Source: Clostridium sp. BNL1100 | GTDB lineage: Bacteria; Bacillota; Clostridia; Acetivibrionales; DSM-1351 | NCBI RefSeq assembly: GCF_000244875.1 | Contig: NC_016791.1 | Location: forward strand, 4,097,001 to 4,161,000 | DNA: 64,000 bases | Reading direction: 5' to 3' | Part shown: piece after piece, positions 9,132-41,407 of the stretch | How positions within the stretch are numbered: position 1 is the first letter of the stretch | Layout of the letters: each line of letters begins with the position of its first letter | Translations under genes and position numbers: made by a program | The notes under the pieces: generated by a model | The model's input: only the letters and a program-made list of their open reading frames with translations | What the model was told of the DNA's origin: nothing | Databases searched by the model: none

Positions 9132-9148
9132 ATGTTTTAGGACACACA

Positions 9149-9177
9149 AAAGCCGGCATATTAAAAATGCCGGCTTT
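9149..9177. terminator. Bidirectional terminator between tyrA and rex
   Basis: An 11-bp perfect stem (9149-9159 with 9167-9177) carries A and T runs on its two sides. Confidence 0.9.
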
Positions 9178-9181
9178 CTTA

Positions 9182-26178: not shown

Positions 26179-26192
26179 GACTAATTGAAATT

Positions 26193-26234
26193 AAAAACAA
26201 CAACCTGGCGGTGTCCCGTCAGGTTGTTGTTTTT
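26193..26234 (-). terminator. Terminator after the Gly/Tyr-rich gene
   Basis: A 15-bp stem AAAAACAACAACCTG/CAGGTTGTTGTTTTT closes a 12-nt loop and ends in T residues on either strand. Confidence 0.88.
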
Positions 26235-26247
26235 AACTAAATCAGGC

Positions 26248-26556
26248 TCAATAACCGTAGTTATTGTAACCATAATCGTTATATCCTTCGTAATTGTTGC
26301 CATAGCCAAAGCCGTAGTCATTATCTCTGCCAAAGCCGAAATTCCCATAATTACCGAAAGGGGAACCATAGTTATTTCCACAGCACAGGTTTCCATATCC
26401 ACCGAATGACCCGAATCCGCCGAAACCCATGTTTCCGTAGAGTCCAAACGGGGATCCATAATTATAACCGCTGTAAAGTGAATAAAGATAGGGCTGCATG
26501 GATCCTCCATAGAGTCCTCCGTAAAAAGGTAAATATCTTGTATCCGCAGTACTCAC
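26248..26556 (-). CDS. Gly/Tyr/Asn/Phe-rich low-complexity protein
   Basis: The protein of up to 102 residues is almost entirely Gly, Tyr, Asn, Phe and Ser (YGNYGNFGFG and similar), with a single CC pair. Such composition is typical of structural coat or exosporium proteins that can be tyrosine cross-linked. The first start is GTG 26556, which lies inside its own AGGAGGTGA site. ATG 26499 with GGAGGA just upstream would give a shorter form, so the start is uncertain. It lies 24 bp after coat-like copy 3 and probably shares its sigma-K-like promoter; the hairpin at 26193-26234 ends the unit. Confidence 0.6.
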   Translation of the reverse strand: MSTADTRYLPFYGGLYGGSMQPYLYSLYSGYNYGSPFGLYGNMGFGGFGSFGGYGNLCCGNNYGSPFGNYGNFGFGRDNDYGFGYGNNYEGYNDYGYNNYGY

Positions 26557-26579: not shown

Positions 26580-27005
26580 TTAAACTGCATTGTGTACAAA
26601 AGAAACAATTGCTGCAATAGGTATATCAACTACAGAACCAACAGTATAAACGGGCAGATTGCTCCAGCCGCCTGCATTAACAGCTCCAACCTGTCCTGCC
26701 GGGCCACCCGCTCCATAACCTGAACAACATCCTGAGCCAAAGCCTGCTCCGAATCCTCCACCATAGCCTCCCTGTGAAAATCCACTGCATGAATTACCCA
26801 GAGAACATCCGGGAGGTGGGCCAATTCTGGATATTAATCTTACAAAAACAGGATTTACCGTTAGAATTACTCCTGTAAAACCTGAACCTGACTGACCACC
26901 GCTACTTGTAAAAATTGTTACTGTCTCTCCAACATAGTTTGCAAGTAAGGCACCCCAATTTGCTACATGGGATATACCTCCGCCACATCCACAACCATCT
27001 GACAT
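26580..27005 (-). CDS. Probable spore coat protein with LSm-like halves and a Gly-rich insert, copy 3
   Basis: This 141-residue third paralogue has the same flanking blocks (YVGETVTIFTSSGGQSGSGF; GPPPGCSLGNSC; LPVYTVGSVVDIPIAAIVSF) and a shorter Gly-rich linker. The N-terminus is Cys-rich (SDGCGCGGG). The upstream AC-N17-CATAAAGTA is a full sigma-K match. With the Gly/Tyr-rich gene it forms a two-gene unit. The strict conservation of the ends and drift of the linker suggest that the folded barrel is functional and the linker is a structural spacer. Confidence 0.74.
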   Translation of the reverse strand: MSDGCGCGGGISHVANWGALLANYVGETVTIFTSSGGQSGSGFTGVILTVNPVFVRLISRIGPPPGCSLGNSCSGFSQGGYGGGFGAGFGSGCCSGYGAGGPAGQVGAVNAGGWSNLPVYTVGSVVDIPIAAIVSFVHNAV

Positions 27006-27037
27006 AGTACGCTATCTCCTTTCATTATTCTATACTC

Positions 27038-27065
27038 TACTTTATGTCTACCAATTAACCTGTGT
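27038..27065 (-). promoter_or_regulatory. Sigma-K-like promoter, coat-like copy 3 unit
   Basis: AC (27064-27065), 17 bp, then CATAAAGTA (27038-27046): a full consensus match. Confidence 0.72.
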
Positions 27066-27082
27066 TACTTTTGAAATATCTT

Positions 27083-27454
27083 TTAGTCTTGTGTATCCTT
27101 GGATATTTCTATCCTGACTTTTTCGTAAGGTTCTTCGTCCCTGCCTTTTGATTGTGAAAAAACATGGATATCCATACATGTGTTTTGCATGTTTTCATAA
27201 CCGGTACCATCATTTGATATCACATCATAGTTTGTTATATTATGGAAATTGAATGGTATTATGTTGCCGGAATCATCCATATAGTTGATTTCCAGTTTTT
27301 CAATCTTTGAATCCACAGGACTGGTCCAATACGGCTTAAAACCAACTCCTATAATTCTTCCGTTAATACCATGGGAAGGTATATTCAGCCTGCACCCTTG
27401 CCTGGCAAGATTCAAGAGTGCAAACTTTAGATTTTCGATCCGTTTATAATTCAT
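27083..27454 (-). CDS. Small protein of unknown function in the coat locus
   Basis: The 123-residue soluble protein has alternating beta-type segments (IIGVGFKPYW; KLEINYMDDSGNIIPFNFHNI; KVRIEISKD). I recognise no family. ATG 27454 is preferred because GGAAG lies about 7 nt upstream; GTG 27463 sits next to that site. The upstream AC-N17-CATAAGATG is the same type of element found at the three coat-like genes, so it probably belongs to the same late-sporulation regulon. Confidence 0.6.
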   Translation of the reverse strand: MNYKRIENLKFALLNLARQGCRLNIPSHGINGRIIGVGFKPYWTSPVDSKIEKLEINYMDDSGNIIPFNFHNITNYDVISNDGTGYENMQNTCMDIHVFSQSKGRDEEPYEKVRIEISKDTQD

Positions 27455-27496
27455 TAACGTCACTTCCGTAAACCTACCACCAATAATCAGCTACTA

Positions 27497-27524
27497 CATC
27501 TTATGTTTACTGGGCTGTTTAGGT
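27497..27524 (-). promoter_or_regulatory. Sigma-K-like promoter of the unknown small gene
   Basis: AC (27523-27524), 17 bp, then CATAAGATG (27497-27505); this has the TG variant also seen at coat-like copy 1. Confidence 0.6.
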
Positions 27525-27591
27525 TACATAAATTATTTACCAGGTCAGAGAATGTCGATATTCTCCCTAATTTTTGAAATGAAAAGGTATG

Positions 27592-27999
27592 CTATATCTG
27601 TTGGTATAGATTAGAATTTTCTTTTGCTATTCTTTGTTCAAGAAGGGCAAAAATTCTTTGTGATTCACTTACAAACAAATCTATGTCATTAGTTATTTTA
27701 GTTCTTGTATTAAACCGATCTTTATACGCCATAAATTCTGTACTTATAGTTCCCATTTCATCTATGTAAGCCTGCGCTGTTGTCCGCACTTCAGAATTAC
27801 TGCTTTTAAGGAGCTGCGGATACATGTACTGGTCTTCTGTACTAAGGTGAACTTTAAGTTTACCGGCAAGATTGCTTATTTTTGATGAAATCTCAAGAGC
27901 CTCTTTGGCAATATCCTTATCACTTATATAGAATTTAATATCTGATAGAATTTCAGCAATCTCCTCATGCTGTCTTTTTAAGGTTTCTAAATATAACAT
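27592..27999 (-). CDS. Hemerythrin-like HHE-domain protein
   Basis: The 135-residue four-helix protein has metal-ligand patterns KRQHEEI near residue 10, KVHLSTEDQYMYP near 60, and late Glu/His-type positions on the last helices. Hemerythrin-like domains bind a di-iron centre and sense or bind O2 or NO, or store iron. ATG 27999 is chosen because GGAGGG lies upstream; the frame continues to an earlier ATG at 28041 that would overlap a palindrome. Two inverted repeats upstream (28040-28073) suggest repressor control. Confidence 0.75.
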   Translation of the reverse strand: MLYLETLKRQHEEIAEILSDIKFYISDKDIAKEALEISSKISNLAGKLKVHLSTEDQYMYPQLLKSSNSEVRTTAQAYIDEMGTISTEFMAYKDRFNTRTKITNDIDLFVSESQRIFALLEQRIAKENSNLYQQI

Positions 28000-28039
28000 T
28001 ATTCGTCCCTCCTGCAATTTTATATTCCTTATATACCCC

Positions 28040-28073
28040 ATGTTATAGCTCTATAACATACTACACTGTAGTA
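28040..28073. promoter_or_regulatory. Two abutting palindromes upstream of the hemerythrin-like gene
   Basis: ATGTTATAG-CT-CTATAACAT (28040-28059) is a 9-bp-arm inverted repeat. TACTACA-C-TGTAGTA (28059-28073) directly adjoins it. Both lie about 40-75 bp before the start, where operators are expected. Confidence 0.55.
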
Positions 28074-28080
28074 TAAACAA

Positions 28081-28116
28081 AAAAACCTACAAAACACTTA
28101 AATTCTGTAGGTTTTT
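28081..28116 (-). terminator. Terminator of the padR-DUF2812 operon
   Basis: An 11-bp stem AAAAACCTACA/TGTAGGTTTTT is followed by eight T residues on the minus strand. Confidence 0.85.
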
Positions 28117-28144
28117 GATGCATCCCTCTAAAAATTATCTTTTG

Positions 28145-28702
28145 TTACTCATGAAGTTGTTTTTCCTTCTTTAACTTGCTAACCTTCCTTAAATACCCTA
28201 TTACCAACCAAGTAAGGCATACACCGAATATTCCATTAACACAAACCAGAGGGGAAATATAAGTCAGATAGCTGCTGTTATATTTAAGAATTGAAACTAT
28301 TCCGTTAACAATATTAACTAAAAATACAAACAGGTTTAATAATCCTATTGTACCCAAAAAGGTACTTACCCTACTATAATGATTAATCTTTGACTCTATA
28401 TCTGAATATATGTCAAAGGGACCTTCTGATGATTTCTTTCGCAGAAAAATCCAGCGATAGTATGTAGCGACACATTCAATACCACTTTCCTCTAAAAACC
28501 TTATATATGCCACACTTTCAGCGTGGGAGGGGGTATGCTCCAGAAGTTCAAGTCTGTAAATATAATCATTGTTCGGTGTTTCAGTAAAAACGTACCTGCA
28601 CCATGAGTAATCTGTTAATGCCATTCCCTTGGATGACATTTCATTAAGCCATTTTTCCTCTTTTTCAAAATCCCAATATGCTTTCCATACAACATGTTTC
28701 AT
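28145..28702 (-). CDS. DUF2812 membrane protein, partner of PadR
   Basis: The 185-residue protein has an N-terminal soluble part starting MKHVVWKAYWDFEKEEKWLN, typical of DUF2812, and two to three membrane helices between ~115 and 170. Its start overlaps the padR stop (TAATG), so they are co-translated. PadR-DUF2812 pairs are common in Firmicutes. The DUF2812 protein is thought to act with the regulator in sensing envelope or drug stress, but its biochemical role is unknown. Confidence 0.78.
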   Translation of the reverse strand: MKHVVWKAYWDFEKEEKWLNEMSSKGMALTDYSWCRYVFTETPNNDYIYRLELLEHTPSHAESVAYIRFLEESGIECVATYYRWIFLRKKSSEGPFDIYSDIESKINHYSRVSTFLGTIGLLNLFVFLVNIVNGIVSILKYNSSYLTYISPLVCVNGIFGVCLTWLVIGYLRKVSKLKKEKQLHE

Positions 28703-29028
28703 TAAAACTCCCCCCCTGTAATCTTCTTGCCGTTTTCAACTAACTCTTCCAATCTAACTATCTCGCCACTGATAATCTCTTTACCCAAGTCAGTTATTTC
28801 ATATTCCTTTTTCCTTGAGTCCTTTTCTACACTAATAGATTTAATCCAATTTTTATCTAACAATGTATTAATTGCTCCATACAAAGTACCTGCTCCTAGA
28901 TTAACTCTTTGCTTGCTTAAATCCTTTACATTTTGCATTATCCCATATCCATGCAGCGGTCTATACAGTGAGAGGAGAATATAAAATACGGCTTCTGTTA
29001 AAGCACCTCGTTCTTGACTTTCAGGCAT
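28702..29028 (-). CDS. PadR-family transcriptional regulator
   Basis: The 108-residue winged-helix protein has the PadR core FYILLSLYRPLHGYGIMQ, GTLYGAINTLLDKNWI and RKKEYEITDLGKEI. Such regulators repress their own operon. AAGGAGTG precedes ATG 29028. The promoter upstream is buried in a 15-bp tandem-repeat array (29051-29125), a likely binding platform for this protein. Confidence 0.9.
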   Translation of the reverse strand: MPESQERGALTEAVFYILLSLYRPLHGYGIMQNVKDLSKQRVNLGAGTLYGAINTLLDKNWIKSISVEKDSRKKEYEITDLGKEIISGEIVRLEELVENGKKITGGEF

Positions 29029-29050
29029 CTAAATCACTCCTTGCTTTGGC

Positions 29051-29125
29051 AATTCTATCGGCGACTGTTATATCGTCTCCCGTTATATCTGATTACATTA
29101 TATCGGCTTCCGTTACATATGTCAA
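29051..29125 (-). promoter_or_regulatory. padR promoter inside a 5 x 15-bp tandem-repeat array
   Basis: The minus-strand -35 TTGACA (29120-29125) and -10 TATAAT (29097-29102) are 17 bp apart. On the plus strand TTCTATC, TTATATC, TTATATC, TTATATC and TTACATA recur at 29053, 29068, 29083, 29098 and 29113, exactly every 15 bp. Confidence 0.75.
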
Positions 29126-29226
29126 TAATTTGGTAAAAAAAAGAAGCTTAAATGTAATTTTCTAAAAAGTTACATTCAGACTTCCTTAATGCTGCTATTT
29201 TCCCTGTAGCATAACAAATTTAATTA

Positions 29227-29712
29227 TTATTTGGGAAAAGCTGATTTAAACAGTTCAATATTTCTATCAATTAGCTTTTTGTGAAAGTCAACATGCTCTA
29301 TATATTGATTAAGTGCCTCTTCCAAATTCACTTTGCCTTTCTTATCATGTATATAGGCATACTTGGTCCAATCAGAATCAATAATTGTTTTTAGATGGTT
29401 TACCATGTAGCTTCTCACTAATTTCATTAGCTCCATAGACATTTTTAGATCTGAAAGCTGGTAGTCTAAATTTCTTGTCCAGATTTGATCAAATGAAAGG
29501 ACAGGAGTATCAGGTTGTGCAATTGCCTTCCTATAACGATGGAAATTGGCAATATCAACCTCCATGCAATGAATTATCTGCTCCTTTATAGACCAAGCAT
29601 CTTCTAATGGCCTATATAGTATAAGCTCATCAGATAGTTCAAGTACATAATCAAAATCATGTGATAGAAGTTCAAATTGTTGTAAAAGACTGATCTTTTC
29701 CTCTTTTGTCAT
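29227..29712 (-). CDS. DinB-like four-helix metalloprotein
   Basis: The 161-residue helical protein matches the DinB/YfiT type: an early DAWSIKEQIIHCMEVDIANFHRY-like segment (split here over residues ~38-60) gives the first metal His, and EHVDFHKKLI near residue 140 gives the HxxxH pair. DinB proteins are nickel- or zinc-binding and many act as thiol transferases; the substrate is unknown. The ribosome site is weak. It stands alone between two other units. Confidence 0.75.
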   Translation of the reverse strand: MTKEEKISLLQQFELLSHDFDYVLELSDELILYRPLEDAWSIKEQIIHCMEVDIANFHRYRKAIAQPDTPVLSFDQIWTRNLDYQLSDLKMSMELMKLVRSYMVNHLKTIIDSDWTKYAYIHDKKGKVNLEEALNQYIEHVDFHKKLIDRNIELFKSAFPK

Positions 29713-30064
29713 TTCACCAGTTCCTCACTTTTTTTGGAATGTAAACTATTTTTATATATAATTGTAATATTTTACAATATTACCGTCAAATAATAGGTTC
29801 ATTTCCATAGGCATATATCGGCACTTAATGGCTATCCTTAACATAAAAATATTAGGCGGATGTGGAAAAACACCCGCCTAATATTTTTATGTTTTTATTG
29901 AAAATTAAACTGATAAATTACCTACCATGTAGCTCCCCCCTTTTCAAAATAATTATTGTTTCCGGAACAATATATATGTACTTCGAAGTACCACAAATTA
30001 AACACTTGCCTTGATATAAAACATGTTCGTCATTCTATGTTTATCCAAACTACGACTTCCTTTT
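29713..30064. other. Intergenic gap at the end of the biosynthetic cluster
   Basis: The 352 bp hold a strong hairpin (29843-29890), a perfect 14-bp palindrome GTACTTCGAAGTAC (29978-29991) and, on the minus strand, a strong AAGGGGGGAG site followed by a 7-codon ORF (29905-29928). No normal gene is visible. Confidence 0.5.
29843..29890 (-). terminator. Terminator of the biosynthetic cluster
   Basis: A 17-bp perfect stem (29843-29859 with 29874-29890) is extended by an inner GTG/CAC and carries A/T runs on both sides. Confidence 0.88.
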
Positions 30065-31063
30065 TCATTGATCAATCAAAATCTTTGAGTCATTATTCAG
30101 GTAGATATCGTGAATTATATCTTCTATTGCTTTTTCCTTTATTTCAATATCCGCTATTTCAGCAATCTTTGATATTTCAAAGAGCAAATGACCGGCTGAG
30201 GATACGGTTTTATCAACAACAAAGCTCCATTTTAATCCGTTTAATTCAGGCACACCCTTTACGCCGGGAATATCAAATTCATTTACCGGCGACAGAAGGT
30301 TTACCGTTACGACGCTTGTTTTATTATAGCTATCTCTAAGATTAGTCATAGGACAATCAACAACGATGACTCCCTTATCAATTAAAATAATCCTCTCACA
30401 AATTTCTTCTATATCCTTCATATCATGAGAAGTGAGAATTACTGTGGTTTTGTACTCTCGGTTAAGCTTCAGAATAAACTCACGTATTTGACGTTTCGCC
30501 ACGATATCCAAGCCTATCGTAGGTTCATCAAGAAAAAGCAATTCCGGATTGTGCAATATGGAAGCAGCAATTTCCGCCCGCATACGCTGTCCGAGACTGA
30601 GTTGGCGAACAGGCTGGTTCCATATACTTTCAAGATCAAGGTACTCCTTGAAAAGATCCAGATTTTTTTCATAAACACTATCCTGAATCCTATATATCTT
30701 CTTCAAAAGCTTAAAAGTATCATTTATGGGTAAATCCCACCACAGCTGACTTCGTTGTCCAAATACAACACCTATATGATAAGCATTTTGTTTTCTCTTT
30801 TTAAAAGGGTCATTCCCCATAACGGTTATATTCCCTGATGTAGGAGCAAGAATTCCACTAAGCATTTTTATGGTAGTAGACTTTCCTGCTCCGTTAGGGC
30901 CCACAAATCCCACAAGACTGCCTTTTGAGATTGAAAAATTAATATCTTTAACAGCATTTATCATCTCAAACTTTCTGGAAAACATAAATTTTAAAATGCC
31001 ACCTTCACGCTTTGCTATTTTATAATCACGAGTCAATCCTTTAACATTTATAAGTTGTTCCAT
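30065..31063 (-). CDS. ABC transporter ATP-binding protein of an ABC-2 exporter
   Basis: The 332-residue ATPase has Walker A GPNGAGKST, a Q-loop region FGQRSQLWWDLP, signature LSLGQRMRAEIAA, Walker B LLFLDEPTIGLD and an H-loop TSHD, plus a ~100-residue C-terminal accessory domain. The NatA/DrrA-like form with two separate ABC-2 permeases upstream makes an export complex. ATG 31063 is used because GGGAGG lies about 7 nt before it; the ORF start at 31090 overlaps the preceding gene. It is the last gene of the minus-strand cluster and should export its product. Confidence 0.9.
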   Translation of the reverse strand: MEQLINVKGLTRDYKIAKREGGILKFMFSRKFEMINAVKDINFSISKGSLVGFVGPNGAGKSTTIKMLSGILAPTSGNITVMGNDPFKKRKQNAYHIGVVFGQRSQLWWDLPINDTFKLLKKIYRIQDSVYEKNLDLFKEYLDLESIWNQPVRQLSLGQRMRAEIAASILHNPELLFLDEPTIGLDIVAKRQIREFILKLNREYKTTVILTSHDMKDIEEICERIILIDKGVIVVDCPMTNLRDSYNKTSVVTVNLLSPVNEFDIPGVKGVPELNGLKWSFVVDKTVSSAGHLLFEISKIAEIADIEIKEKAIEDIIHDIYLNNDSKILIDQ

Positions 31064-31086
31064 ATATATTCCTCCCGTAACCGATA

Positions 31087-32154
31087 TCATGAAAAGTCTT
31101 CAGTAGTGTATTGATAATACTTCAATTCAATCAGCAATTCGTTCAGGAACTGTTTAAAGAGTTCTTTGCTGTCCATTATCATATTACTTACCCTGTCTCT
31201 GGAGGTCATTGCAAGCTCTTTATTTGGGGATATAGTTACTTTCGTAAATAAGTTTAATGCAGTCTGAAGAGTTGTAACTATATTTTGAATTTTACCTTGG
31301 AGTAAATCTTGTTTGCGTAAAATGTATTTATTATCAATTAAATATTTTAGACGCCTTAGCCATAATGTTGACATATCCTTAATAAGTCCAAGGGGTCTGA
31401 ATCTGTTAAATTCAATATCTTTAATTTGCTTTGCAATCAAATCAAAGCTATCTGCACCAAAGAAAAAATCTCCCTTTTCTTTAATGCTAATTGAATTAAA
31501 ATTGAAATTAATATTTTCGCCTGCCATATTCCTAAATATATTTTCACATGACATGAATTGTTCAATCGAATGTATCAGTTCAGCTATACTGACAACAAAA
31601 GTATATTCCTCTCTATACCTCAATAACATGACATTTGAATTTTTACGGAATCCTTCAAATTCGTGAACTCCGTAGAACCCATTATGCATTTCCTCATATG
31701 AGCAAACATAGCATCCGAATTTACCTCCGGGCATATCCTTATAAGGGAAAAAATCGCCCAGATAGAACTCTCTTTTTTCACTGTCATAACCATAAACAAT
31801 CAGATTGTGTGTCTCAGCATTATACCCCTTATAAGCATTCATATCCTGTCTGTTTACTGCTATATAAATATAAAAATCATTATTTAAAGCGAATTCAAGG
31901 TATTCAACAATATCATACTTCATATTGTCAATATAATCATAAGTTACTCCTGATATAGTAAGAAACGGGCAATTAAAAAACTCGGTGGTTCTTGCAAACC
32001 CATCCAATACCAAGGATTTAGCTATATAAATGTTAACCATATTGTTTACCATCCAAGGAGTTGCTTGTGGATAGCTATCTAGAATTGCCATTAAATATGT
32101 GTCCGCCGGTAAGTGAGATATATCCGGCTTCGTAAATGGTAATATTTTATTCAT
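31087..32154 (-). CDS. BtrH/C39-like protein 1 in the biosynthetic cluster
   Basis: The 355-residue protein has an N-terminal ~180-residue domain with the layout of the butirosin BtrH N-terminal (C39 peptidase-like) fold: a helical start, then DFYIYIAVNRQDM, HNLIVYGYDSEKREFYLGDF with the conserved His/Tyr/Asp region. The remainder is helical. BtrH moves an acyl group from a carrier protein to an amine. Here no Cys is visible at the usual N-terminal nucleophile site, so activity may differ. It shares layout with the divergent protein at 37710-38819. It sits between permease and ATPase genes. The family call is moderate and the function is inference. Confidence 0.55.
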   Translation of the reverse strand: MNKILPFTKPDISHLPADTYLMAILDSYPQATPWMVNNMVNIYIAKSLVLDGFARTTEFFNCPFLTISGVTYDYIDNMKYDIVEYLEFALNNDFYIYIAVNRQDMNAYKGYNAETHNLIVYGYDSEKREFYLGDFFPYKDMPGGKFGCYVCSYEEMHNGFYGVHEFEGFRKNSNVMLLRYREEYTFVVSIAELIHSIEQFMSCENIFRNMAGENINFNFNSISIKEKGDFFFGADSFDLIAKQIKDIEFNRFRPLGLIKDMSTLWLRRLKYLIDNKYILRKQDLLQGKIQNIVTTLQTALNLFTKVTISPNKELAMTSRDRVSNMIMDSKELFKQFLNELLIELKYYQYTTEDFS

Positions 32155-32198
32155 CTTTATCCTCTTTCTTTTTGAACTCAGTTTTCAATTCCCGTAAA

Positions 32199-32999
32199 TT
32201 AACTGCCACTGCCTGAATAACGCCTCAACCCTCGGTTAAAAACAAGTATGGACAGCCCAAAAATCATAACCCCTATAAGTGGTGACAATAATCCTATTAT
32301 TAAATCCGAACATGTCTGGACTTTCATTAATATTATAAGACTTGGATAGTAATTGATAATGGCATAGGGCAGTACAAAAGTTAATATAAATCCTATATAC
32401 TGCGGAAATATTGTTAGCGGATATTGAATCATGGAGCGTATGTCATAATACAAAGTCATAGACAGAGAATCTGTCCGTAACAGCCAGAAGCTTAAACTTC
32501 CCAGAATAATCATAGCACCTGCCTGAAAGAAAATACCTCCGATTATGGCAAAAACCAAATAAATATATGAAAAAAATGTCATCCTATAATTGATTTTATA
32601 TATTGCAAGAATCATAAATATTATTGTTACAAGAATTTGTCCGAGAAATGTATCTCCAAAGCGGCGACACATCATTTGCTTTATAACTCCCATTGGTCGT
32701 ATGAGATAGCTGTCGAGGTTTCCCGAAGTTATCTCATTTTCAAGATGGTACACTGTATACCAAAAAAATATGCCTGCGATTGCGTAGGTTACTACATTTA
32801 AGCCGTATAACAATGTCATTTCTTCAAAACTCCAGCCTTCAATACTATTGAACCGCTGTACTAATGCCCAAAACGTTATATAGGAAATAAAGTATCTGTA
32901 AAAATTTACGGTCAGGCCAGTAAAAAAACTTATGCGATATTCCATTCTAGACTTTAAAAATATCTTTACATAACTGCCATATATACTTAAAAACTCCAT
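32199..32999 (-). CDS. ABC-2 family permease, second of two
   Basis: The 266-residue protein has about six membrane helices and the DUF990-type motif EITSGNLDSYLIRPM near residues 95-110. ATG 32999 lies one base after the stop of the upstream permease, with GGGAGGG inside that gene's end, so the pair is coupled. Together with the neighbouring permease and the ATPase at 30065-31063 it should form the export channel for the cluster product. Confidence 0.85.
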   Translation of the reverse strand: MEFLSIYGSYVKIFLKSRMEYRISFFTGLTVNFYRYFISYITFWALVQRFNSIEGWSFEEMTLLYGLNVVTYAIAGIFFWYTVYHLENEITSGNLDSYLIRPMGVIKQMMCRRFGDTFLGQILVTIIFMILAIYKINYRMTFFSYIYLVFAIIGGIFFQAGAMIILGSLSFWLLRTDSLSMTLYYDIRSMIQYPLTIFPQYIGFILTFVLPYAIINYYPSLIILMKVQTCSDLIIGLLSPLIGVMIFGLSILVFNRGLRRYSGSGS

Positions 33000-33000
33000 A

Positions 33001-33759
33001 TTACCCTCCCTGTACAACCGCTTTCCTTAATGCCATCTTATATACGATAAAATTGAGAACGATAAAAACGCAAATCCATGCAAGCAGGATTAAGTAATTT
33101 ATAAGAATGCTATTTCCTTGTACCTTTGCAAACAAAAGCTCTAGGGGAAAAGAATATAAAAATCTAAACGGTAAAACTGTTGCTATAGATTTCAGAAAGC
33201 CGGGCAGAATAGCAATGGGTAAAAAAGATCCGGCAAAGAGTCTTATTGTATCTTCTATTAATAATTTCAGTGGCCAGATCTCAATTATTGCAAATGCCAG
33301 AAAACCAATCAAGGCATAAATCAGCACCAATAATATATGACCTAATATTAATGCTAAAAGAACCAATAAAATATTACTGTATACACCGCGATAAAGCAGC
33401 GGTATGAAAATAATTGCTACAGGCAGACCCTGGACAATGAATTTTGAGACGGTTTTTGCCAGTTCCGTTTGCCACGACATGGCAAAGATATTTATCGGCC
33501 TCAGCAGGTCAATAACAAACGCACCGGAGGATACTTTACCTCCTATACTATCCGATATACCCGGAGTATAAATCATTGCTATAATATTTGACATTATCGT
33601 ATACCGGATCATATATTGGATCATCTCTGTATTTTCTTTGTACAAGGATTTCCACAGCAGTATATTAATATAAATTACCAGTATGGAGCCTAAGCAAGAA
33701 AAAAACATAGAATAACGGTATACAAAAGAATTCTTTAAAGAAATATAAAATAAATACAT
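33001..33759 (-). CDS. ABC-2 family permease, first of two
   Basis: The 252-residue protein has about six hydrophobic helices and the related DUF990-like segment KVSSGAFVIDLLRPINIF. It is a diverged partner of the next permease; such heterodimeric pairs with one ATPase are a common exporter layout. It lies about 20 bp after the adenylation gene, in one operon. Confidence 0.85.
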   Translation of the reverse strand: MYLFYISLKNSFVYRYSMFFSCLGSILVIYINILLWKSLYKENTEMIQYMIRYTIMSNIIAMIYTPGISDSIGGKVSSGAFVIDLLRPINIFAMSWQTELAKTVSKFIVQGLPVAIIFIPLLYRGVYSNILLVLLALILGHILLVLIYALIGFLAFAIIEIWPLKLLIEDTIRLFAGSFLPIAILPGFLKSIATVLPFRFLYSFPLELLFAKVQGNSILINYLILLAWICVFIVLNFIVYKMALRKAVVQGG

Positions 33760-33781
33760 GTTTTATTCTTCCTCTATTTAA

Positions 33782-35320
33782 TTATGGTATTACATATTCT
33801 GCCTTCAGTTTAGCCATATCAATTTTCCCATTATCAGTAAGTTCAAAATTATCTTTTTGTATTAAAGTTGTTGGCAGCATATATTGAGGGAGACTTAGCC
33901 TTAAATCGTTAAGTATCCTCTGTTTTATTTGTGTAACGTCAATGAACTTTTCGGATGTTTTATAAAAAGCAATAATTATGTCCGCATTTATCTTATTCTT
34001 CGCAACCAAAACTGCGGACATTTCTATATACTGTAACCTGTTTAGTTGATTCCTTATCTCGCCCAATTCAACCCTGTTTCCATTTATTTTGACAAACTGG
34101 TCGTCTCTACCCAGATATACCAGCTCACCGTTTACATATTTAGCCTTATCCCCTGTTTTATAAAGAACCGGCGACTCATCCAAGTGATTCTGTAAAAAGG
34201 CTTCTCTGGTTTGCTCAGGTAGGTTTAAATAACCTTTTCCTACACATATACCCGAAATATATATTTCTCCTTCTACATCATTTGCAGTTATAACACGTTT
34301 ATTGGAATCTAATAAATAAACCCTCACATTGTCAACAGGCTCACCCAAGGACACATATTCGTCGCCATATGATATATCAAATTCTTTTGCTGTAACACAA
34401 ATAGACGTCTCTGTTGGCCCGTAAAAATTGTATAGTTTACACTCCGGCAGTACCTTCACAAATTTCTTAATACAAGTGGGAGTCAATTCCTCACCACTAC
34501 TTACTACTCTACGCAGTGAGCTTAGTGAAATATTTGGCATACTGCTGATTTTTTCAATAAAAATACTAAGAAGTGAAGGAACAAATTGGACTACTGAAAC
34601 TTTCTTTTGTATAATCAAGCTGGTTATAAATGATATATTTTTATATGAAGTATCCTTGGTAACAATTAATCTGGCTCCTGAAACCAAGGGCAGAAAAATC
34701 TCCCATAAGGATATATCAAAGCCAATAGGTGCTTTAAACAAGCAACATTGCTCCTCATCCATCTGAAAGTAATTTTTTTGCCACATTATTCGGTTAGAGA
34801 ATCCGGCCTGATGAATCAATACCCCTTTGGGAGAGCCACTTGAGCCGGATGTATACAATAAATAAGCCAAATCATCCTCAGTACCTTGATACTTCGGAAA
34901 ATCGACAACTTCAGATTCCTCAGCCGGTAAAGAAATTATTTTGACATTGCTTTGGAAAGGGTTTGCATTCGGCTCATCTGTTAATACAAAACTAATTTTT
35001 GCATCATCAACAATAAATTGAACCCTTTTTTCTGGATACTCCCGTGAAATTGGAACGTACACTCCTCCCAGTTTTAAAATTGCCAATAATGCATAAATGT
35101 AGTAATCGGATTTTTTTGCAAATAACCCGATAAAGTCCCCTTTTCTTGCACCATTTAAATATAGTTGGCAGGCTACCTGGTTAGCTTTATTATTTATGTC
35201 AGAGTATGTAAACTGCAGGTCATTAAACTCCAGACAAACTCGTTCTGGAAATGCCTGTACAGCGTTTTCAAACATATCTACAACCGTAGTAAAACCTTTT
35301 TGTGCTGGAGACGTTAGCAT
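33782..35320 (-). CDS. Stand-alone NRPS-type adenylation protein
   Basis: The 512-residue amino-acid-activating enzyme has core motifs in order: LKLGGVYVPI (A2), YTSGSSGSPKG (A3), FDIS (A4), NFYGPTE (A5), YKTGD (A7), GRDDQFVKINGNRVELGEI (A8) and NGKID (A10). The FDIS aspartate indicates an alpha-amino acid substrate. Read by eye against GrsA, the specificity code is about D-I-W-Q-V-S-F-I-C-K; I cannot assign an amino acid safely. It has no condensation, carrier or thioesterase domain, so it must load the free carrier protein at 36896. ATG 35320 is preferred over TTG 35326. Confidence 0.92.
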   Translation of the reverse strand: MLTSPAQKGFTTVVDMFENAVQAFPERVCLEFNDLQFTYSDINNKANQVACQLYLNGARKGDFIGLFAKKSDYYIYALLAILKLGGVYVPISREYPEKRVQFIVDDAKISFVLTDEPNANPFQSNVKIISLPAEESEVVDFPKYQGTEDDLAYLLYTSGSSGSPKGVLIHQAGFSNRIMWQKNYFQMDEEQCCLFKAPIGFDISLWEIFLPLVSGARLIVTKDTSYKNISFITSLIIQKKVSVVQFVPSLLSIFIEKISSMPNISLSSLRRVVSSGEELTPTCIKKFVKVLPECKLYNFYGPTETSICVTAKEFDISYGDEYVSLGEPVDNVRVYLLDSNKRVITANDVEGEIYISGICVGKGYLNLPEQTREAFLQNHLDESPVLYKTGDKAKYVNGELVYLGRDDQFVKINGNRVELGEIRNQLNRLQYIEMSAVLVAKNKINADIIIAFYKTSEKFIDVTQIKQRILNDLRLSLPQYMLPTTLIQKDNFELTDNGKIDMAKLKAEYVIP

Positions 35321-35362
35321 TGACAATTCCCACTTTCCATCTATGTCTATAATATTACACTA

Positions 35363-36796
35363 TTATTTTTTTCTCAGATTCTTACCCAACCTGACTTCGT
35401 TACCTATATTTTTCAAAATTGATTTAACTTCGTCCAATTCAAACCCCTGTGCCAGCATTTCAAATACATGATGAGTCTGTATCGTTTTAATCGTTGAATT
35501 TGTAATACGTTTAGGGAACTCATTACACAATTCTTCTGCCTTACTGTAATCCATTGTAGCATGGGACCATTGGTAATTATTTCCAACAAGGTTATAGGCT
35601 TCCTTTTGTTTTGAAATTGGTGTAGTAATGTCGTAATACCAAGGTACAACAGCATAGAAGTCAGGAGCAGCGTTATTTATGAAATTAATTGTATCGTTCA
35701 CGCTTTCCTCAGTCTCTCCCGGAAAGCCCACAAAGAAGAATCCCATTGTAGCAATACCATGTTTTTTTAGAATTGATATTCCTCTGGTCAGATCCTCGAC
35801 AGTGGTTTTTTTGTTCATCCTGTTAAGCATCTCCTGATTACCGGATTCCAACCCCAATATTACAGCGACACATCCTGTTTCCTTCATCAGCTGTGCCAGT
35901 TCATCAGTAATAAACTGACAGCGTACATATGAAAACCATTTAAAGTTATATTGATTTCTTTTCATCATAAGCAACATATCTTTAAACCGCTCTGTTGGTA
36001 CATTGAGATTATCATCAATAAAATGTACAATCTGCGTCTTTCCCATTTCATAGATCTGGTTTAATTCCTGCTCCACGTTATCAATTGTTCTGATTTGATG
36101 TTTTCCGCTATGAATTGGATAAGCACAGAAAGTACAGGAGTATGGACATGATATGGACGCTCTGATTGGAACTATCTTTAAATTTTGATCACCAAACAGC
36201 TTCCAATCCAAATTACAATCTTCTAAAGATTCATATTCAGTTTCGTTTTCATTCTTAATAAACTGGTTACCACTACGGAAAGTGATATTTTTTATATCTG
36301 ATAATTCCCTTTTGCCATTTAATGCCTCAAGGATTTCTATAAGCTTGTCTGCACCTGCATAAGAATTGAAATATATATCCGCACCAATTTTTTTATAAAG
36401 GAGCTGCAGTTCTCTCAGTGTAAACTGTTTGGTTTTTGCAACAATAAAAGGACCTCCAACAAATATAGTAGCCGAAGGTTTATACTTTTTAACAAATGCT
36501 GCTATTTTTTCAAGAGATTCAAAATCAGTAATATGCGTAGTTGAAATACCAACATACTTGTAATCATTAGTTGTTAATTTTTCTTTGAGTTCATCTTTAA
36601 AATCTTCAAATGAAGACAGGTAATCACATGTGTATCCGTTTCTTATAAGTTTTGTACCCAAATGTGCCAAAGCACCCGGGAATGAAACATTTAATTCAAC
36701 CTCTTTTTCATCATATACTCTTCCTATTCTTTCCAACTCTTTAGATACGTTGGAGCCTGTAAAGCTGATTAACAGAACATCATACATCTTATCCAT
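35363..36796 (-). CDS. Cobalamin-binding-domain radical SAM enzyme
   Basis: The 477-residue enzyme has an N-terminal Rossmann-like B12-type domain (residues ~1-160; VGISTTHITDFESL, IFVGGPFI) and a radical SAM core with SCPYSCTFC (CxxxCxxC) near residue 220 plus an Elp3-like region (VILGLESGNQEMLNRMNKKT; FFVGFPGETEESV). Class B enzymes of this kind methylate unreactive carbons or rearrange carbon chains. It sits between the adenylation and carrier protein genes, so a carrier-bound amino acid or the finished product is a plausible substrate (inference). ATG 36796 with AGGGGTG upstream is favoured over ATG 36844. Confidence 0.88.
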   Translation of the reverse strand: MDKMYDVLLISFTGSNVSKELERIGRVYDEKEVELNVSFPGALAHLGTKLIRNGYTCDYLSSFEDFKDELKEKLTTNDYKYVGISTTHITDFESLEKIAAFVKKYKPSATIFVGGPFIVAKTKQFTLRELQLLYKKIGADIYFNSYAGADKLIEILEALNGKRELSDIKNITFRSGNQFIKNENETEYESLEDCNLDWKLFGDQNLKIVPIRASISCPYSCTFCAYPIHSGKHQIRTIDNVEQELNQIYEMGKTQIVHFIDDNLNVPTERFKDMLLMMKRNQYNFKWFSYVRCQFITDELAQLMKETGCVAVILGLESGNQEMLNRMNKKTTVEDLTRGISILKKHGIATMGFFFVGFPGETEESVNDTINFINNAAPDFYAVVPWYYDITTPISKQKEAYNLVGNNYQWSHATMDYSKAEELCNEFPKRITNSTIKTIQTHHVFEMLAQGFELDEVKSILKNIGNEVRLGKNLRKK

Positions 36797-36895
36797 TGTC
36801 ACACCCACCCCTAACTTATTTTTAACTGTCTGGAAAAAGGCCATTCCCTTATCAGTGTCTTTTATTTTGGTATTATATTTTGTAGTTGAAACTAC

Positions 36896-37168
36896 TTATA
36901 TTTGCGCCCGGGATTTTACATAGGATATAAAGTCCTCTAGAGTTTTAAATGAAGATATAGCTAACATTTCATCATCAAATATAAAATTAAATGTCGTCTC
37001 CAGAGATGCACATATTTTAATAAAACTCATTGAGTCAATATTGATACTGCTTAAATCAAGGTCAGGTCTTATATCGCTGTAAAGCATATCTAAATTTGCT
37101 TCAATTGCCTTCTTGACCTCATTCTCTACAACATCCAATTTCTCATTTTTTTCAATTTGTTCATTCAT
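36896..37168 (-). CDS. Acyl/peptidyl carrier protein
   Basis: The 90-residue acidic four-helix protein has the phosphopantetheine site NIDSMSFIKI, in which the Ser of DSM receives the arm. ATG 37168 follows GGGGGAGA. It is the first gene of the minus-strand cluster. Together with the stand-alone adenylation enzyme it makes a minimal thiotemplate system. A phosphopantetheinyl transferase is not in the window and must be supplied elsewhere. Confidence 0.9.
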   Translation of the reverse strand: MNEQIEKNEKLDVVENEVKKAIEANLDMLYSDIRPDLDLSSINIDSMSFIKICASLETTFNFIFDDEMLAISSFKTLEDFISYVKSRAQI

Positions 37169-37363
37169 TATATCTCCCCCTATTATCAATTTTAAAAAAT
37201 ATATTTATAATTCAGCTCAGATTCTTTACCGGATATTCTTTTTATACAATATAAGTAAAGAATCGCTTCCATTTTACTAGTCAATATTCCATAACTTCCA
37301 AAATCCTACATAATGTAACTAATAACATTCTACACAAAAGAACAATTACTACCTTATTTTTTT

Positions 37364-37392
37364 ATATTATACATATTATTTCTATTTGTCAA
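37364..37392 (-). promoter_or_regulatory. Candidate promoter of the biosynthetic operon
   Basis: On the minus strand TTGACA (37387-37392) precedes TAATAT with 17-bp spacing, or TATAAT with 15-bp spacing. Confidence 0.5.
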
Positions 37393-37491
37393 TATTTTAC
37401 CAGAATATGCAATTATTTGGTACTATCTTGCCATGACATACCGAATACCTCAATTATGGTATTTACTATTTTATGTACTTTTTGTAAACTG

Positions 37492-37521
37492 TTGACATTA
37501 TAAAATGGTTTGGATTATAAT
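37492..37521 (+). promoter_or_regulatory. Promoter of the divergent BtrH-like gene
   Basis: TTGACA (37492-37497) and TATAAT (37516-37521) are 18 bp apart, about 190 nt before the start codon. Confidence 0.72.
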
Positions 37522-37709
37522 TAGGGCAAATTTGTTTTTTACCATTAGGAATTAATATTACGCCTTACCATTCCGGCTTGAATTTGTAAATAACCTCAAC
37601 TACCGTTATCAATTTCAAATTCATCCAGGTATCTGATTGCTCGTAGGGTAATCCTCGGAACACCGAAGTATCGGATTTTAAAAGATTGAGAATGGAGATG
37701 AAATGACAG

Positions 37710-38819
37710 GTGGAAATTGATGATTTGCCAAGGTTTAAAAAATATAGTTCTTCTAATAAAGAATTAAATGTTAAATTACAAAAAGAAATCACTACCTACC
37801 TAAATTACAGCTTGCCGTTATGCGCAATTCTTTGGGATAGAAAAAAGGAAAATTGGGCTTATGAGCATTTTACACAGCTCTATTGTATGAAGGATAAAAG
37901 TGGTTACTTATGGCTTGACTATCTGGAAGAGCTTCTATTTCCCCAAGATGTTTCCAACTACATATTTATCCCTTCAGATGATTTAAAAAATGTAAATGAT
38001 ATTATTTTCTTCATAAAGGAAAAAGTAAGCCTCGGCAATTGTCTGATGATTTTTTTAGATAAATATTATATCAGCAATTCAAGAAATTACCTAAAAAAAC
38101 ATGATATATTTCAAGCTTTTATATATGGGTACGATGATGTGTCAAATGAGCTCCTGGGAATCGGATTTCTGGATAATAACACATTTGATTATTTGCGTTA
38201 TTCTTATTCAGATGTGTTAGAAGCTTACACTTCATGTAGAAACGAATATGAGTCCTCTCCATTATGGGTCCGGTTATATGCGTGCGTTCTTATAAAAGTA
38301 AAAAACTTAGGTGAAGAACATAAGTGCAATTTTACTAAAATAATATCCGATATGAAAAATTATGTATCCTCCATTGGATGTGAATCCGACTTAAGATATG
38401 AAATAAAAATATGCCGAGGAACAAATGCTACATATGGAATAAATGTAATTAATGAAGTCATTGATCATTTGAAGCGATTATTAGATGATACTTGGACTAT
38501 AGATTATCGACAAATACATTTACTATATGAACATAAAAGGCTCATGAAAAAACGAATTGAGTTCCTTGGTCAAATATATGGTTTCAAGGATGAAAAATTT
38601 TGTAAGTCCCTATCAATATATACAAGTATAGAAAAAAGCTTTGAAACCGCTAAAGCAATTTATATGAAAAGCATTTTGGCTCAAACCAATTACAAAAGCA
38701 TTTATGGTTGTCTCAAAGACACTGATACCATTAAAAAGATTATAAGTATATATGAAAACGAAATACCCCGAGAAGGGGAAATATTAAACTATATTATATA
38801 TCGCTGTACAAACGGGTAA
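37710..38819 (+). CDS. BtrH/C39-like protein 2, divergent from the cluster
   Basis: The 369-residue protein is built like the cluster member at 31087-32154: an early LCAILWDR..W segment aligns with LMAILDSY..W, and NCLMIFLDKYYIS with QAFIYGYDDVSNELLGIGFL aligns with DFYIYIAVNRQDM and HNLIVYGYDSEKREFYLGDF. The helical C-terminal half also corresponds. Overall identity is low. An in-frame TGA lies two codons before GTG 37710, so this GTG is the first possible start; GGAG lies about 12 nt upstream. The role is unknown; acyl transfer from the carrier protein or self-protection are both open. Confidence 0.6.
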   Translation: MEIDDLPRFKKYSSSNKELNVKLQKEITTYLNYSLPLCAILWDRKKENWAYEHFTQLYCMKDKSGYLWLDYLEELLFPQDVSNYIFIPSDDLKNVNDIIFFIKEKVSLGNCLMIFLDKYYISNSRNYLKKHDIFQAFIYGYDDVSNELLGIGFLDNNTFDYLRYSYSDVLEAYTSCRNEYESSPLWVRLYACVLIKVKNLGEEHKCNFTKIISDMKNYVSSIGCESDLRYEIKICRGTNATYGINVINEVIDHLKRLLDDTWTIDYRQIHLLYEHKRLMKKRIEFLGQIYGFKDEKFCKSLSIYTSIEKSFETAKAIYMKSILAQTNYKSIYGCLKDTDTIKKIISIYENEIPREGEILNYIIYRCTNG

Positions 38820-38859
38820 TAGTAGGTTAATCAAATAAACACATTATTACATACAAATA

Positions 38860-38905
38860 TAAAGAAAAAGCATTGACTTTAACAGCCAGTCAATACTTTT
38901 CTTTA
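38860..38905. terminator. Bidirectional terminator between the BtrH-like gene and hcp
   Basis: A long stem of about 18 bp with one bulge (38860-38878 with 38888-38905) serves the two convergent genes. Confidence 0.8.
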
Positions 38906-38950
38906 CATGTCTATTATTACCTAATTCTGAGGAATTTTAAATCCTTCATA

Positions 38951-40654
38951 TTATGCTAAGAACATTTTAATATCTTCATCTACAGTTCCTATTCCTGCTA
39001 TTCCAAAATTCTCTACTAATACTTTAGCTACATTTGGTGATAAGAAGGCCGGAAGTGTTGGCCCCAGGTGAATATTCTTAACTCCAAGATATAATAAGGA
39101 TAATAATACTATTACAGCCTTTTGCTCATACCATGCAATATTATAGGATATTGGAAGCTTATTAACATCATCCAATCCAAATACTTCTTGAAGCTTTAAT
39201 GCAATTACAACTAATGAGTATGAATCATTACATTGCCCGGCGTCAAGTACTCTTGGAATTCCACCAATATCTCCAAGATTCAATTTATTATATTTATATT
39301 TTGCGCAACCAGCAGTTAATATAACTGTATCCTTTGGAAGCTTTTCTGCAAATTCAGTATAGTAGTTTCTTGATTTAGCTCTGCCATCGCAGCCAGCCAT
39401 TACAAAGAATCTCTTTATAGCCCCCGTCTTAACAGCATCTACTACCTTGTCAGCCAAAGCTAATACTTGGTTGTGAGCAAAGCCTCCTATGATTTCTCCC
39501 TTTTCAATTTCAGTTGGCGCCTTACACTTTTTAGCCATAGCAATTAATTCTGAGAAATCCTTATTTCCATTTTCATCTGCAACAATGTGTTTGCAGCCTG
39601 GTACACCAGTTGCTCCTGTTGTAAATAATCTATTCTTATATGAATCCTTCGGAGGAACAATACAGTTTGTAGTCATTAGAACTACTCCGTTGAATTTTTC
39701 AAATTCTTCTCCTTGCTTCCACCATGCATTACCGTAATTTCCTGCAAAGTGTGAATATTTCTTAAAAGCCGGATAATATTGTCCTGCCAGCATTTCACTG
39801 TGCGTATAAACATCTACTCCTGTTCCTTCTGTTTGCTCTAATAACATTTGAAGGTCTCTTAAATCATGTCCGGAAATTAATATTCCGGGGTTATTTCTAA
39901 CTCCAATATTAACTTTTGTAATCTCAGGATTTCCATAAGTTTCTGTGTTTGCTTTATCAAGTAATGCCATTGCAGAAACTCCATATTTTCCTGCTTCTAA
40001 TGCAAGCGCCACTAAATCCTCTGCAGATAATGAATTATCTAATGTTGCAGCCAAAGCTTTCGCCATAAATCCATGAACCTCTATATCATTGTATCCTAAG
40101 TTCATAGCGTGCTTCATATATGCTGATAAACCTTTCAGTCCATAGATTATAAGCTCTCTTAAGCTCCTTACATCTTCATTTTCAGTCGCCAATACTCCTA
40201 CTTTTTCAGCTTTTGCATCAAATTCACTTACATTATTAGCTGACCATACTGCTGCATCTGGAATAACTATTTCATTTGATGCCATTCCAAATAATTTTTT
40301 AAAGAAATTGCTTATACCTTTAGTTTCTCCTATTTGTCCGCCGGCCTTTACAACCTTACTTTTTAAATCTTCTCTTAAATTCAAAGTTTCCTTAACTCTT
40401 TCTATAAGTGCTTCTCTATCAAAGTTAGCATTTGTAATTGTTGAGAATAAGCTTTCAGTAATATATTTGTCTACATTGCCATCAACTACACCAACTTTTC
40501 TTCCTTCATTGCTTACTACTGCTAAGCCTTTAGTTACAAAAACTAATAAGTCCTGAGCTTTTGCTACGTCCGCAGTTTTACCGCAGACACCATTTACAGT
40601 ACACCCCTTACCACCCGCAGCTTCTTGACATTGATAACAAAACATATTTGACAT
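38951..40654 (-). CDS. hcp: Hydroxylamine reductase (hybrid-cluster protein)
   Basis: The 567-residue protein has an N-terminal cluster motif [20 protein letters not shown] that binds the cubane Fe-S cluster and later hybrid-cluster ligands ([11 protein letters not shown] region, [31 protein letters not shown]). Hcp reduces hydroxylamine and acts as an NO reductase or S-nitrosylase in anaerobes. AAGGAGGAT precedes the ATG. The usual partner hcr is not adjacent. There is a hairpin after the gene but no recognisable operator before it. Confidence 0.96.
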
Positions 40655-40888
40655 AACATCCTCCTTATAATAACGTTCATTTATTCATATATAATATTTA
40701 TAATTTTTTATTACTGCTTGCATTTTTCCATGAGTTAATTATATTAGTTTACAAAGATAAATTCGGTATCTGAGGATACAAAAAGTAGACCTTTTTGGAG
40801 AAATGTGTTCTTCAACAAAAGATATGGCGGGTAATGGTGATGGCATACATTGATTTTAATTGTGAAAAGTTATTGTGAATAAAAAAAT

Positions 40889-40915
40889 AAAAAGCCCTTT
40901 TATCAAGGACTTTTT
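40889..40915 (-). terminator. Terminator of the tRNA operon
   Basis: A 9-bp stem AAAAAGTCC/GGGCTTTTT (one G-U pair) is followed by a T run on the minus strand. Confidence 0.8.
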
Positions 40916-40919
40916 AATT

Positions 40920-40994
<75 letters not shown>

Positions 40995-41038
40995 ATCAAT
41001 ATTGAGACAGACCACGTAAGCAATCTGCCTCATTTGTT

Positions 41039-41113
41039 TGGAGCGGGTTACGAGATTTGAACTCGCGACTTTCACCTTGGCAAGGTGACACTCTACCGCT
41101 GAGTTAAACCCGC
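41039..41113 (-). tRNA. tRNA-Gly (anticodon GCC)
   Basis: The acceptor GCGGGTT pairs with AACCCGC. The anticodon loop TTGCCAA reads GCC, and CCA is encoded. Confidence 0.96.
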
Positions 41114-41152
41114 ATGTTAAACTGAAAAGCTTTTTGACTTATCAATTTAATT

Positions 41153-41228
41153 TGGTGCCCAGAGCCGGAATCGAACCAGCGACACGGGGATTTTCAGTCC
41201 CCTGCTCTACCGACTGAGCTATCTGGGC
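41153..41228 (-). tRNA. tRNA-Phe (anticodon GAA)
   Basis: The acceptor GCCCAGA pairs with TCTGGGC. The anticodon loop CTGAAAA reads GAA, and ACCA is encoded. Confidence 0.96.
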
Positions 41229-41232
41229 AAAT

Positions 41233-41309
41233 TGGCGACCCGGAACGGGCTCGAACCGTCGACCTCCAGCGTGACAGGCTGGCATTCTAACCAACTGAAC
41301 TACCGGGCC
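41233..41309 (-). tRNA. tRNA-Asp (anticodon GTC)
   Basis: The acceptor GGCCCGG pairs with CCGGGTC. The anticodon loop CTGTCAC reads GTC, and CCA is encoded. Confidence 0.96.
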
Positions 41310-41331
41310 AATTTGTATCTCTCACGGAAAA

Positions 41332-41407
41332 TGGTGGGAACTATAGGGCTCGAACCTATGACCCTCTGCTTGTAAGGCAGATGCTCTCCCAGCTGAGCTA
41401 AGCTCCC
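41332..41407 (-). tRNA. tRNA-Val (anticodon TAC)
   Basis: The acceptor GGGAGCT pairs with AGTTCCC, including a G-U pair. The anticodon loop CTTACAA reads TAC, and CCA is encoded. It is first in the five-tRNA operon. Confidence 0.95.

Follow-up and report, generated by a model that had tools for sequence, protein, structure and literature searches.

Gene set and its boundaries

The subject of this analysis is an eight-gene set at 30065-38819 in a 64,000-nucleotide stretch of Clostridium sp. BNL1100, referred to as the window, which corresponds to C1:4097001-4161000 within the 4.61-Mb single-contig genome. Seven genes on the minus strand and one divergent gene on the plus strand bring together a free carrier protein, a free-standing adenylation protein, a PhpK-family cobalamin radical S-adenosylmethionine (SAM) enzyme, two BtrH-like proteins, two ATP-binding cassette type 2 (ABC-2) permeases and an ATPase. 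Apart from the PhpK assignment, this arrangement had been described in the original prediction, made from the sequence alone, and all eight genes were found in place with their families. The genes and families, the missing catalytic residues, the selection and the recurrent association of the components are read directly from the sequence. The features are listed below by position in the window.

30065..31090, minus strand: ABC transporter ATPase, 341 aa (Pfam ABC_tran, 100.8 bits)
31087..32154, minus strand: BtrH1, a Cys-less BtrH-like protein, 355 aa (weak BtrH_N match, profile alignment)
32199..33017, minus strand: ABC-2 permease PF06182 (ABC2_membrane_6), 272 aa (147.5 bits, cut-off 22)
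33001..33759, minus strand: ABC-2 permease PF06182 (ABC2_membrane_6), 252 aa (40.2 bits, cut-off 22)
33782..35326, minus strand: free-standing adenylation protein, 514 aa, code DIWQVSFICK (AMP-binding, 246.6 bits; TIGR01733)
35363..36844, minus strand: PhpK-family cobalamin radical SAM enzyme, 493 aa (TIGR04479; Radical_SAM, 93.2 bits)
36896..37189, minus strand: free carrier protein, 97 aa (PF00550, 27.9 bits, cut-off 20.8)
37710..38819, plus strand: BtrH2, a divergent Cys-less BtrH-like protein, 369 aa (profile comparison)
29840..29893: hairpin that closes the operon downstream, arms of 24 nt, 96% complementary, probable terminator
38866..38900: core arms of a hairpin after BtrH2, 13 nt, 92% complementary (fold of the surrounding stretch)
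37492..37521, plus strand: sigma-70-type promoter match, 12/12, upstream of BtrH2 (consensus match only)

Consistent with the earlier description, Pfam lists no condensation or thioesterase domain for the eight proteins, and neither an AANH thioamide synthetase nor an ATP-grasp ligase is among their Pfam and NCBIfam families. The hairpins proposed to bound the set are present, although neither is among the predictions of a terminator scan. An Rfam scan of 37100-37800 gave no match up to E 1.

The nearest named relative found is Ruminiclostridium papyrosolvens C7 (L008; genome G022). All eight genes are under purifying selection, with ratios of nonsynonymous to synonymous substitution (dN/dS) against C7 ranging from 0.045 for the ATPase to 0.151 for BtrH2; the reading frames are thus not due to chance. 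A further row of that comparison, labelled Hcp, matched genes that are not related and is disregarded. DNA of the window is alignable with C7 in three pieces over 26703-38824, interrupted at 37273-37596 between the divergent genes, and the alignment resumes from 40920. The perfect sigma-70-type match lies ~190 nt before BtrH2, and another occupies a like place in C7 (L008 9354-9326); both sit in DNA that is not alignable between the two genomes. The BtrH2 frame in C7 begins 9 codons further upstream. Among 58 genomes of the order, close BtrH1 is confined to the own genome and C7 (834 bits, next best 55.6). The same holds for the adenylation protein (100 and 94% identity, next 46%) among the candidates scored, at most 26 per genome, so that nearer domains in rich genomes were possibly missed.

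Two further features lie outside the set. At the corresponding position C7 lacks the stretch 38825-40919, which holds a Prismane-family gene (38951-40654) and ends beside five tRNA genes at 40923-41407. Elsewhere, two overlapping same-strand open frames at 26181-26556, one of them Gly/Tyr-rich, are flanked by two Gly-rich proteins.

The radical SAM enzyme and its putative substrate

The radical SAM enzyme scores 642.2 bits against TIGR04479, "PhpK family radical SAM P-methyltransferase" (cut-off 600), in a match that spans residues 58-483 of the enzyme and 74-503 of the profile. The CxxxCxxC motif reported earlier is present as CPYSCTFC at residue 233. The N-terminal B12 domain, also proposed, reaches 25.2 bits when scored alone, under the Pfam cut-off of 32.1, but TIGR04479 is a cobalamin radical SAM family and the whole protein exceeds its cut-off. 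The PhpK family is rare: members over the cut-off occur in 8/58 genomes of the order, in 4 of 391 genomes sampled from the class, and in one of 398 sampled from the phylum, which is the own genome. The 17 PhpK-family genes taken for comparison comprise 14 over the cut-off and three under it (578.4, 551.5 and 470.7 bits), with G040 and G013 left out as distant. In a tree of 22 proteins, in which several outgroup branches are long, the window enzyme groups with that of C7 and then with that of G018 (99/97). Among solved structures only distant radical SAM relatives were found (best 64.8 bits), and plasmid records contain no relative of the protein at E 1e-50.

Phosphinate biosynthesis requires phosphoenolpyruvate (PEP) mutase. 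A PEP mutase (PF13714) over the cut-off was found in none of the 10 genomes that carry a PhpK-family protein (nine with a member over the cut-off, plus G018 at 470.7 bits), some of which are drafts of 90-98% completeness, while the same profile exceeded its cut-off in 9/14 control genomes. Weaker matches in five of the ten (26.6-28.8 bits of 31.5) are panB, an enzyme of another pathway, and the best match of the own genome (19.8 bits of 31.5) is likewise panB. This casts doubt on the name P-methyltransferase for these proteins. PhpK mediates P-methylation, and other enzymes of its class are reported to methylate unactivated carbon (PMC7277169). From these family data, phosphinate methylation by the window's enzyme appears unlikely, and C-methylation of a carrier-bound amino acid would be the more likely reaction.

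The set holds both an amino-acid adenylation domain and a carrier protein over their cut-offs. The adenylation protein scores 355.7 bits against TIGR01733 (cut-off 317.4) with its core motifs present, and the carrier protein has its predicted phosphopantetheine site at Ser53. The ten pocket residues, placed at what we take to be the GrsA positions, read DIWQVSFICK. This code keeps both the first Asp and the last Lys, which are retained by activators of alpha-amino acids (PMC12283262). The 12 rows in which codes were read comprise the window gene and its counterpart in C7, a pair of proteins from a second cluster described below and eight further domains. The second-cluster proteins of the own genome and C7 carry the identical code at 46% identity. 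The eight next domains among the candidates scored (35-38%) have DVWHFSLVDK (four), DVWHFGLVDK (one), DVANFCIIYK (two) and DVSNIALIYK (one), of which we take DVWHFSLVDK to be a serine code. The codes DVWHLSLVDK and DVWHMSLVDK are assigned to serine (PMC12283262). A serine-like alpha-amino acid is put forward as the substrate, as a guess of low confidence.

The known substrate of PhpK is a glutamate analogue. Glutamine or glutamate was rejected as the substrate. DAQDLGVVDK is a code that recognises Glu and Gln (PMC12283262); it is carried by the gene beside PhpK in only 4/17 loci, and it differs from that of the window.

BtrH-like proteins and the recurrent cluster type

Least secure is the label BtrH-like, which profile comparison supports for BtrH2 and only in part for BtrH1. 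BtrH2 has no Pfam BtrH_N match and no match of note in Pfam/NCBIfam, whereas in profile comparison its family aligns with the BtrH_N profile (PF14399) at 97.7% over 241 columns. BtrH1 reaches 14.3 bits against BtrH_N (cut-off 29.7), and its profile alignment is local only, 55.7% over 47 columns. BtrH1 aligns with the BtrH2 family at 36.2% over 267 columns, and both proteins match a common homologue (L064) at ~1e-10.

In an alignment of BtrH_N from 28/30 loci of the genus (L110 and L111 were omitted because of their long frames), each of the residues Cys, His and Asp occurs in 27/28 rows, and the 28th (L092) is a mis-picked frame. BtrH1 keeps the His (His116) and the Asp (Asp134), with its alignment to BtrH_N confined to their surroundings, and has no Cys before residue 62. 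Nine of its 14 relatives outside the cluster were read (L137-L143, L064 and L065; L144 was mis-picked and left out), with His in 9/9 and Asp in 8/9, and by eye none has Cys at the nucleophile site. BtrH2 is without Cys, His and Asp at all three sites. Its strict family set comprises 16 domains, with five overlapping pieces and five weaker relatives left out. The nucleophile site is not covered by the profile-profile alignment and was located from N-terminal motifs, less surely than the His and Asp sites. It is occupied by His in 12 domains, Asn in three (window, C7 and L005) and Cys in one; the residue so placed is Asn32 in BtrH2, and in BtrH1 it would be Pro16 or Ala17. The family His is kept in 14 of the 16 and is Phe in the window and C7, and the Asp site holds Gly in 14, Ser in one and Ala in one. 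Because the catalytic residues are missing, Cys in BtrH1 and all three in BtrH2, a papain-type mechanism in its usual form seems not to be available to either protein. The BtrH-type acyl transfer that had been proposed for them is thus weakened, as both lack the Cys that the BtrH_N proteins of the genus share.

Homologues of BtrH2 in the own genome sit directly behind carrier or condensation domains, in the following three proteins.

477 aa: carrier-BtrH2 fusion
1211 aa: partial condensation-adenylation-carrier-BtrH2
1944 aa: adenylation with methyltransferase insert-carrier-condensation-BtrH2

These fusions argue for work on carrier-bound groups. We also note that BtrH2-like domains end peptide synthetases C-terminally or adjoin carrier domains in Ruminiclostridium (L080, L081, L068 and L069); in L068 and L069 they form a tandem pair. 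Such domains are barely detected by Pfam. Among solved structures BtrH1 has no relative at E 5 or below, and a single row at E 0.32 was returned for BtrH2.

The exporter genes point to a recurrent cluster type. The genus has 29 PF06182 loci in 11 genomes, 28 of them pairs, and a BtrH-like gene lies within 15 kb of 18/29, against 1.8 (standard deviation 1.3) expected under uniform placement; the 18 overstate the number of separate events, since the 11 genomes contain orthologous loci, which are not independent. This count leaves out a broken PF06182 fragment (G016:C2:56534), three short pieces and rows from outside the genus. In the own genome, four of five PF06182 pairs are near a BtrH-like gene, the window's pair counted. 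A survey with home-made profiles and varied flank lengths found a BtrH-like gene beside 7/17 PhpK-family genes (own, C7 twice, G021, G027a, G019 and G018). In the sister cluster of G018, a BtrH_N protein over the cut-off (41.6 bits) and a synthetase module accompany a PhpK-family protein, a further B12 radical SAM enzyme and a free carrier protein. Two of the other PF06182 pairs of the own genome lie in rich clusters related to the window set.

C1:761-777 kb: rich cluster with ATPase, PF06182 pair, carrier protein, two BtrH_N and adenylation protein
C1:639-660 kb (L145 9142-19999 and L059 1-11375): second cluster

The ATPase of the former is 50% identical to that of the window over 321 aa. The second cluster resembles the window set in its adenylation code, B12 radical SAM enzymes, carriers, PF06182 pair with ATPase and BtrH-type protein. 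Its code DIWQVSFICK belongs to an adenylation-carrier protein, and its two B12 radical SAM enzymes score 102.2 and 107.4 bits, far under the PhpK cut-off. In addition it has a carrier protein, a second adenylation protein, an aminotransferase, an asparagine synthetase and an aldehyde dehydrogenase, and its BtrH_N protein possesses the Cys that the window's BtrH-like proteins lack. Elsewhere in the own genome, L082 (G000:C1:3683-3703 kb) contains a PF06182 pair together with two BtrH2-like proteins and one short protein that resembles a carrier, adjoined by genes that by eye look like a radical SAM enzyme and a sugar transferase.

Proposed pathway, rival readings and known systems

The most likely reading is a condensation-free thiotemplate pathway, in which an amino acid is loaded, modified by radical chemistry on the carrier, released or transferred, and exported as a small product; we hold it about as readily as we doubt it. 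We infer each chemical step, the acceptor and the product. The adenylation protein would activate an alpha-amino acid, perhaps serine-like, and load it onto the carrier protein, where the PhpK-family enzyme would modify it, most likely by C-methylation. The loaded carrier may then be bound by one or both BtrH-like proteins, which would help in release or in transfer to an acceptor without a papain-type Cys: BtrH1 might use its His-Asp pair, or the two might act as partners with no catalytic role. Export of the small product would fall to the PF06182 pair and the ATPase. Loading and modification are suggested by family evidence, and release or transfer by association. The pathway is supported by the protein families, the negative PEP mutase result, the Asp and Lys of the code, the codes of the nearest other domains, the recurrence of the code, BtrH-like and PF06182 associations, the BtrH2 fusions and the dN/dS values. 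The outline agrees in part with the original prediction: a carrier pathway free of condensation domains, a B12 radical SAM enzyme that probably methylates, and export are consistent with the data, and BtrH-type acyl transfer in the form proposed is not supported. The PhpK-family identity, the negative PEP mutase result and the related clusters in the own genome go beyond it.

Several observations weigh against this pathway. The eight-gene set contains no acceptor-making, thioesterase or condensation enzyme. No known code matching DIWQVSFICK was found, and the substrate guess rests on that code. The loss in BtrH2 of a His kept by its relatives means that it is possibly non-catalytic, and the structure models of BtrH1 and BtrH2, built from two-row alignments, are unusable (mean predicted local distance difference test scores 41.5 and 38.0). 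For ten of the 17 PhpK-family genes, the examined flank lacks a BtrH-like gene (three in G026, G027b, two in G032, G016 on a 4.7-kb contig, and three in G249). Since close BtrH1 and adenylation protein are confined to the own genome and C7, the exact set was seen in 2/58 genomes. The refuting condition named beforehand, that the genes rarely co-occur, thus has a mixed outcome: the exact set is rare, but its component types occur together repeatedly. A match to a characterised cluster, the other such condition, was not found, nor was published work on this cluster among the matches listed.

The absence of an acceptor-making gene also suits a supply module, in which the modified amino acid, still on its carrier, passes to a large peptide synthetase encoded at another place in the genome and the BtrH-like proteins act as carrier-to-carrier shuttles. 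The fusion of BtrH2 homologues to carrier proteins and synthetases in the own genome agrees with this; however, the set is bounded on its own, encodes an exporter and has no synthetase gene inside it, and we think a supply module unlikely. Acyl transfer from the carrier to an amine by a papain-type Cys-His-Asp triad, as in BtrH, draws on the family resemblance seen by profile comparison and on the true BtrH_N proteins of two related clusters in the own genome, but with the nucleophile-site Cys missing in both proteins, and His and Asp also in BtrH2, it is quite unlikely here.

A free adenylation protein beside a free carrier protein also recalls Dlt-like surface-polymer modification, in which the two would put an amino acid on an envelope polymer. 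DltA models do match (PRK04813, 285.0 bits; TIGR01734, 269.7 bits), yet under their cut-offs of 476 and 559.85, DltB and DltD are not in the set, and Dlt systems are not known to have a place for a radical SAM enzyme or a PF06182 pair; this explanation is very improbable. True P-methylation, of a phosphinate imported or otherwise made, has the family name and the TIGR04479 score on its side and is scarcely credible against the PEP mutase result, in which both the ten genomes and the own genome's best match yielded panB at most.

As a kind, the set is a variant of condensation-free thiotemplate pathways, and the finding is real and unusual. A broader and doubtful reading, which we entertain only tentatively, is that clostridial PhpK-family proteins are carrier-dependent C-methyltransferases and not P-methyltransferases, that Cys-less BtrH-like proteins are a class of their own, new among the proteins that release or transfer groups from acyl carriers, and that together they make condensation-free amino-acid conjugates of a new class. 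The BtrH-like proteins would then either use a His-Asp pair or serve as platforms for binding, and would have expanded in Ruminiclostridium both free and as synthetase end domains. Two testable points arise, namely that one branch of the so-called P-methyltransferases has a different methylation target, and that the papain-type cysteine is not needed by BtrH-like domains, which also stand at peptide synthetase ends.

Compared with modular nonribosomal peptide synthetases (NRPS), the set has the adenylation domain and the carrier but no condensation domain. Like PhpK of the phosphinothricin peptides, the window enzyme is a radical SAM protein over the TIGR04479 cut-off; unlike PhpK, it adjoins free adenylation and carrier proteins in a genome in which no PEP mutase was found. 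In butirosin biosynthesis, BtrH acts with its carrier protein in the side-chain pathway, which resembles the window set in pairing a carrier-bound amino acid with a BtrH-type protein. BtrH is an acyl carrier protein:aminoglycoside acyltransferase (PMC10318531). It moves the acyl group to an aminoglycoside, whereas the window set has neither acceptor genes nor the site Cys and adds a cobalamin radical SAM enzyme. C. papyrosolvens DSM 2782 is reported to have a different, sactibiotic-like radical SAM cluster (PMC3132745).

A close parallel in logic is closthioamide of Ruminiclostridium cellulolyticum, which is made by an NRPS-independent route with free carrier proteins and a free adenylate-forming enzyme, its amides being formed by a peptidyl transferase and a transglutaminase (PMC6772006). 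Its locus was placed by motifs at L088 (G017), where a putative CtaG, assigned by size, order and motifs to 8307-9245, has a YNC motif with Cys and scores 20.7 bits of 22 against Peptidase_C39. The closthioamide cluster includes genes for making the acceptor, for an AANH thioamide synthetase and for an ATP-grasp ligase, all of which the window set lacks, while the part of that source considered here names no radical SAM enzyme for it and the window set has one. Both systems share the condensation-free logic, the free carriers and the free adenylate-forming enzyme, and among the clusters of this recurrent type observed in the present analysis, in the genus to which the closthioamide producer belongs, the window set is the smallest.

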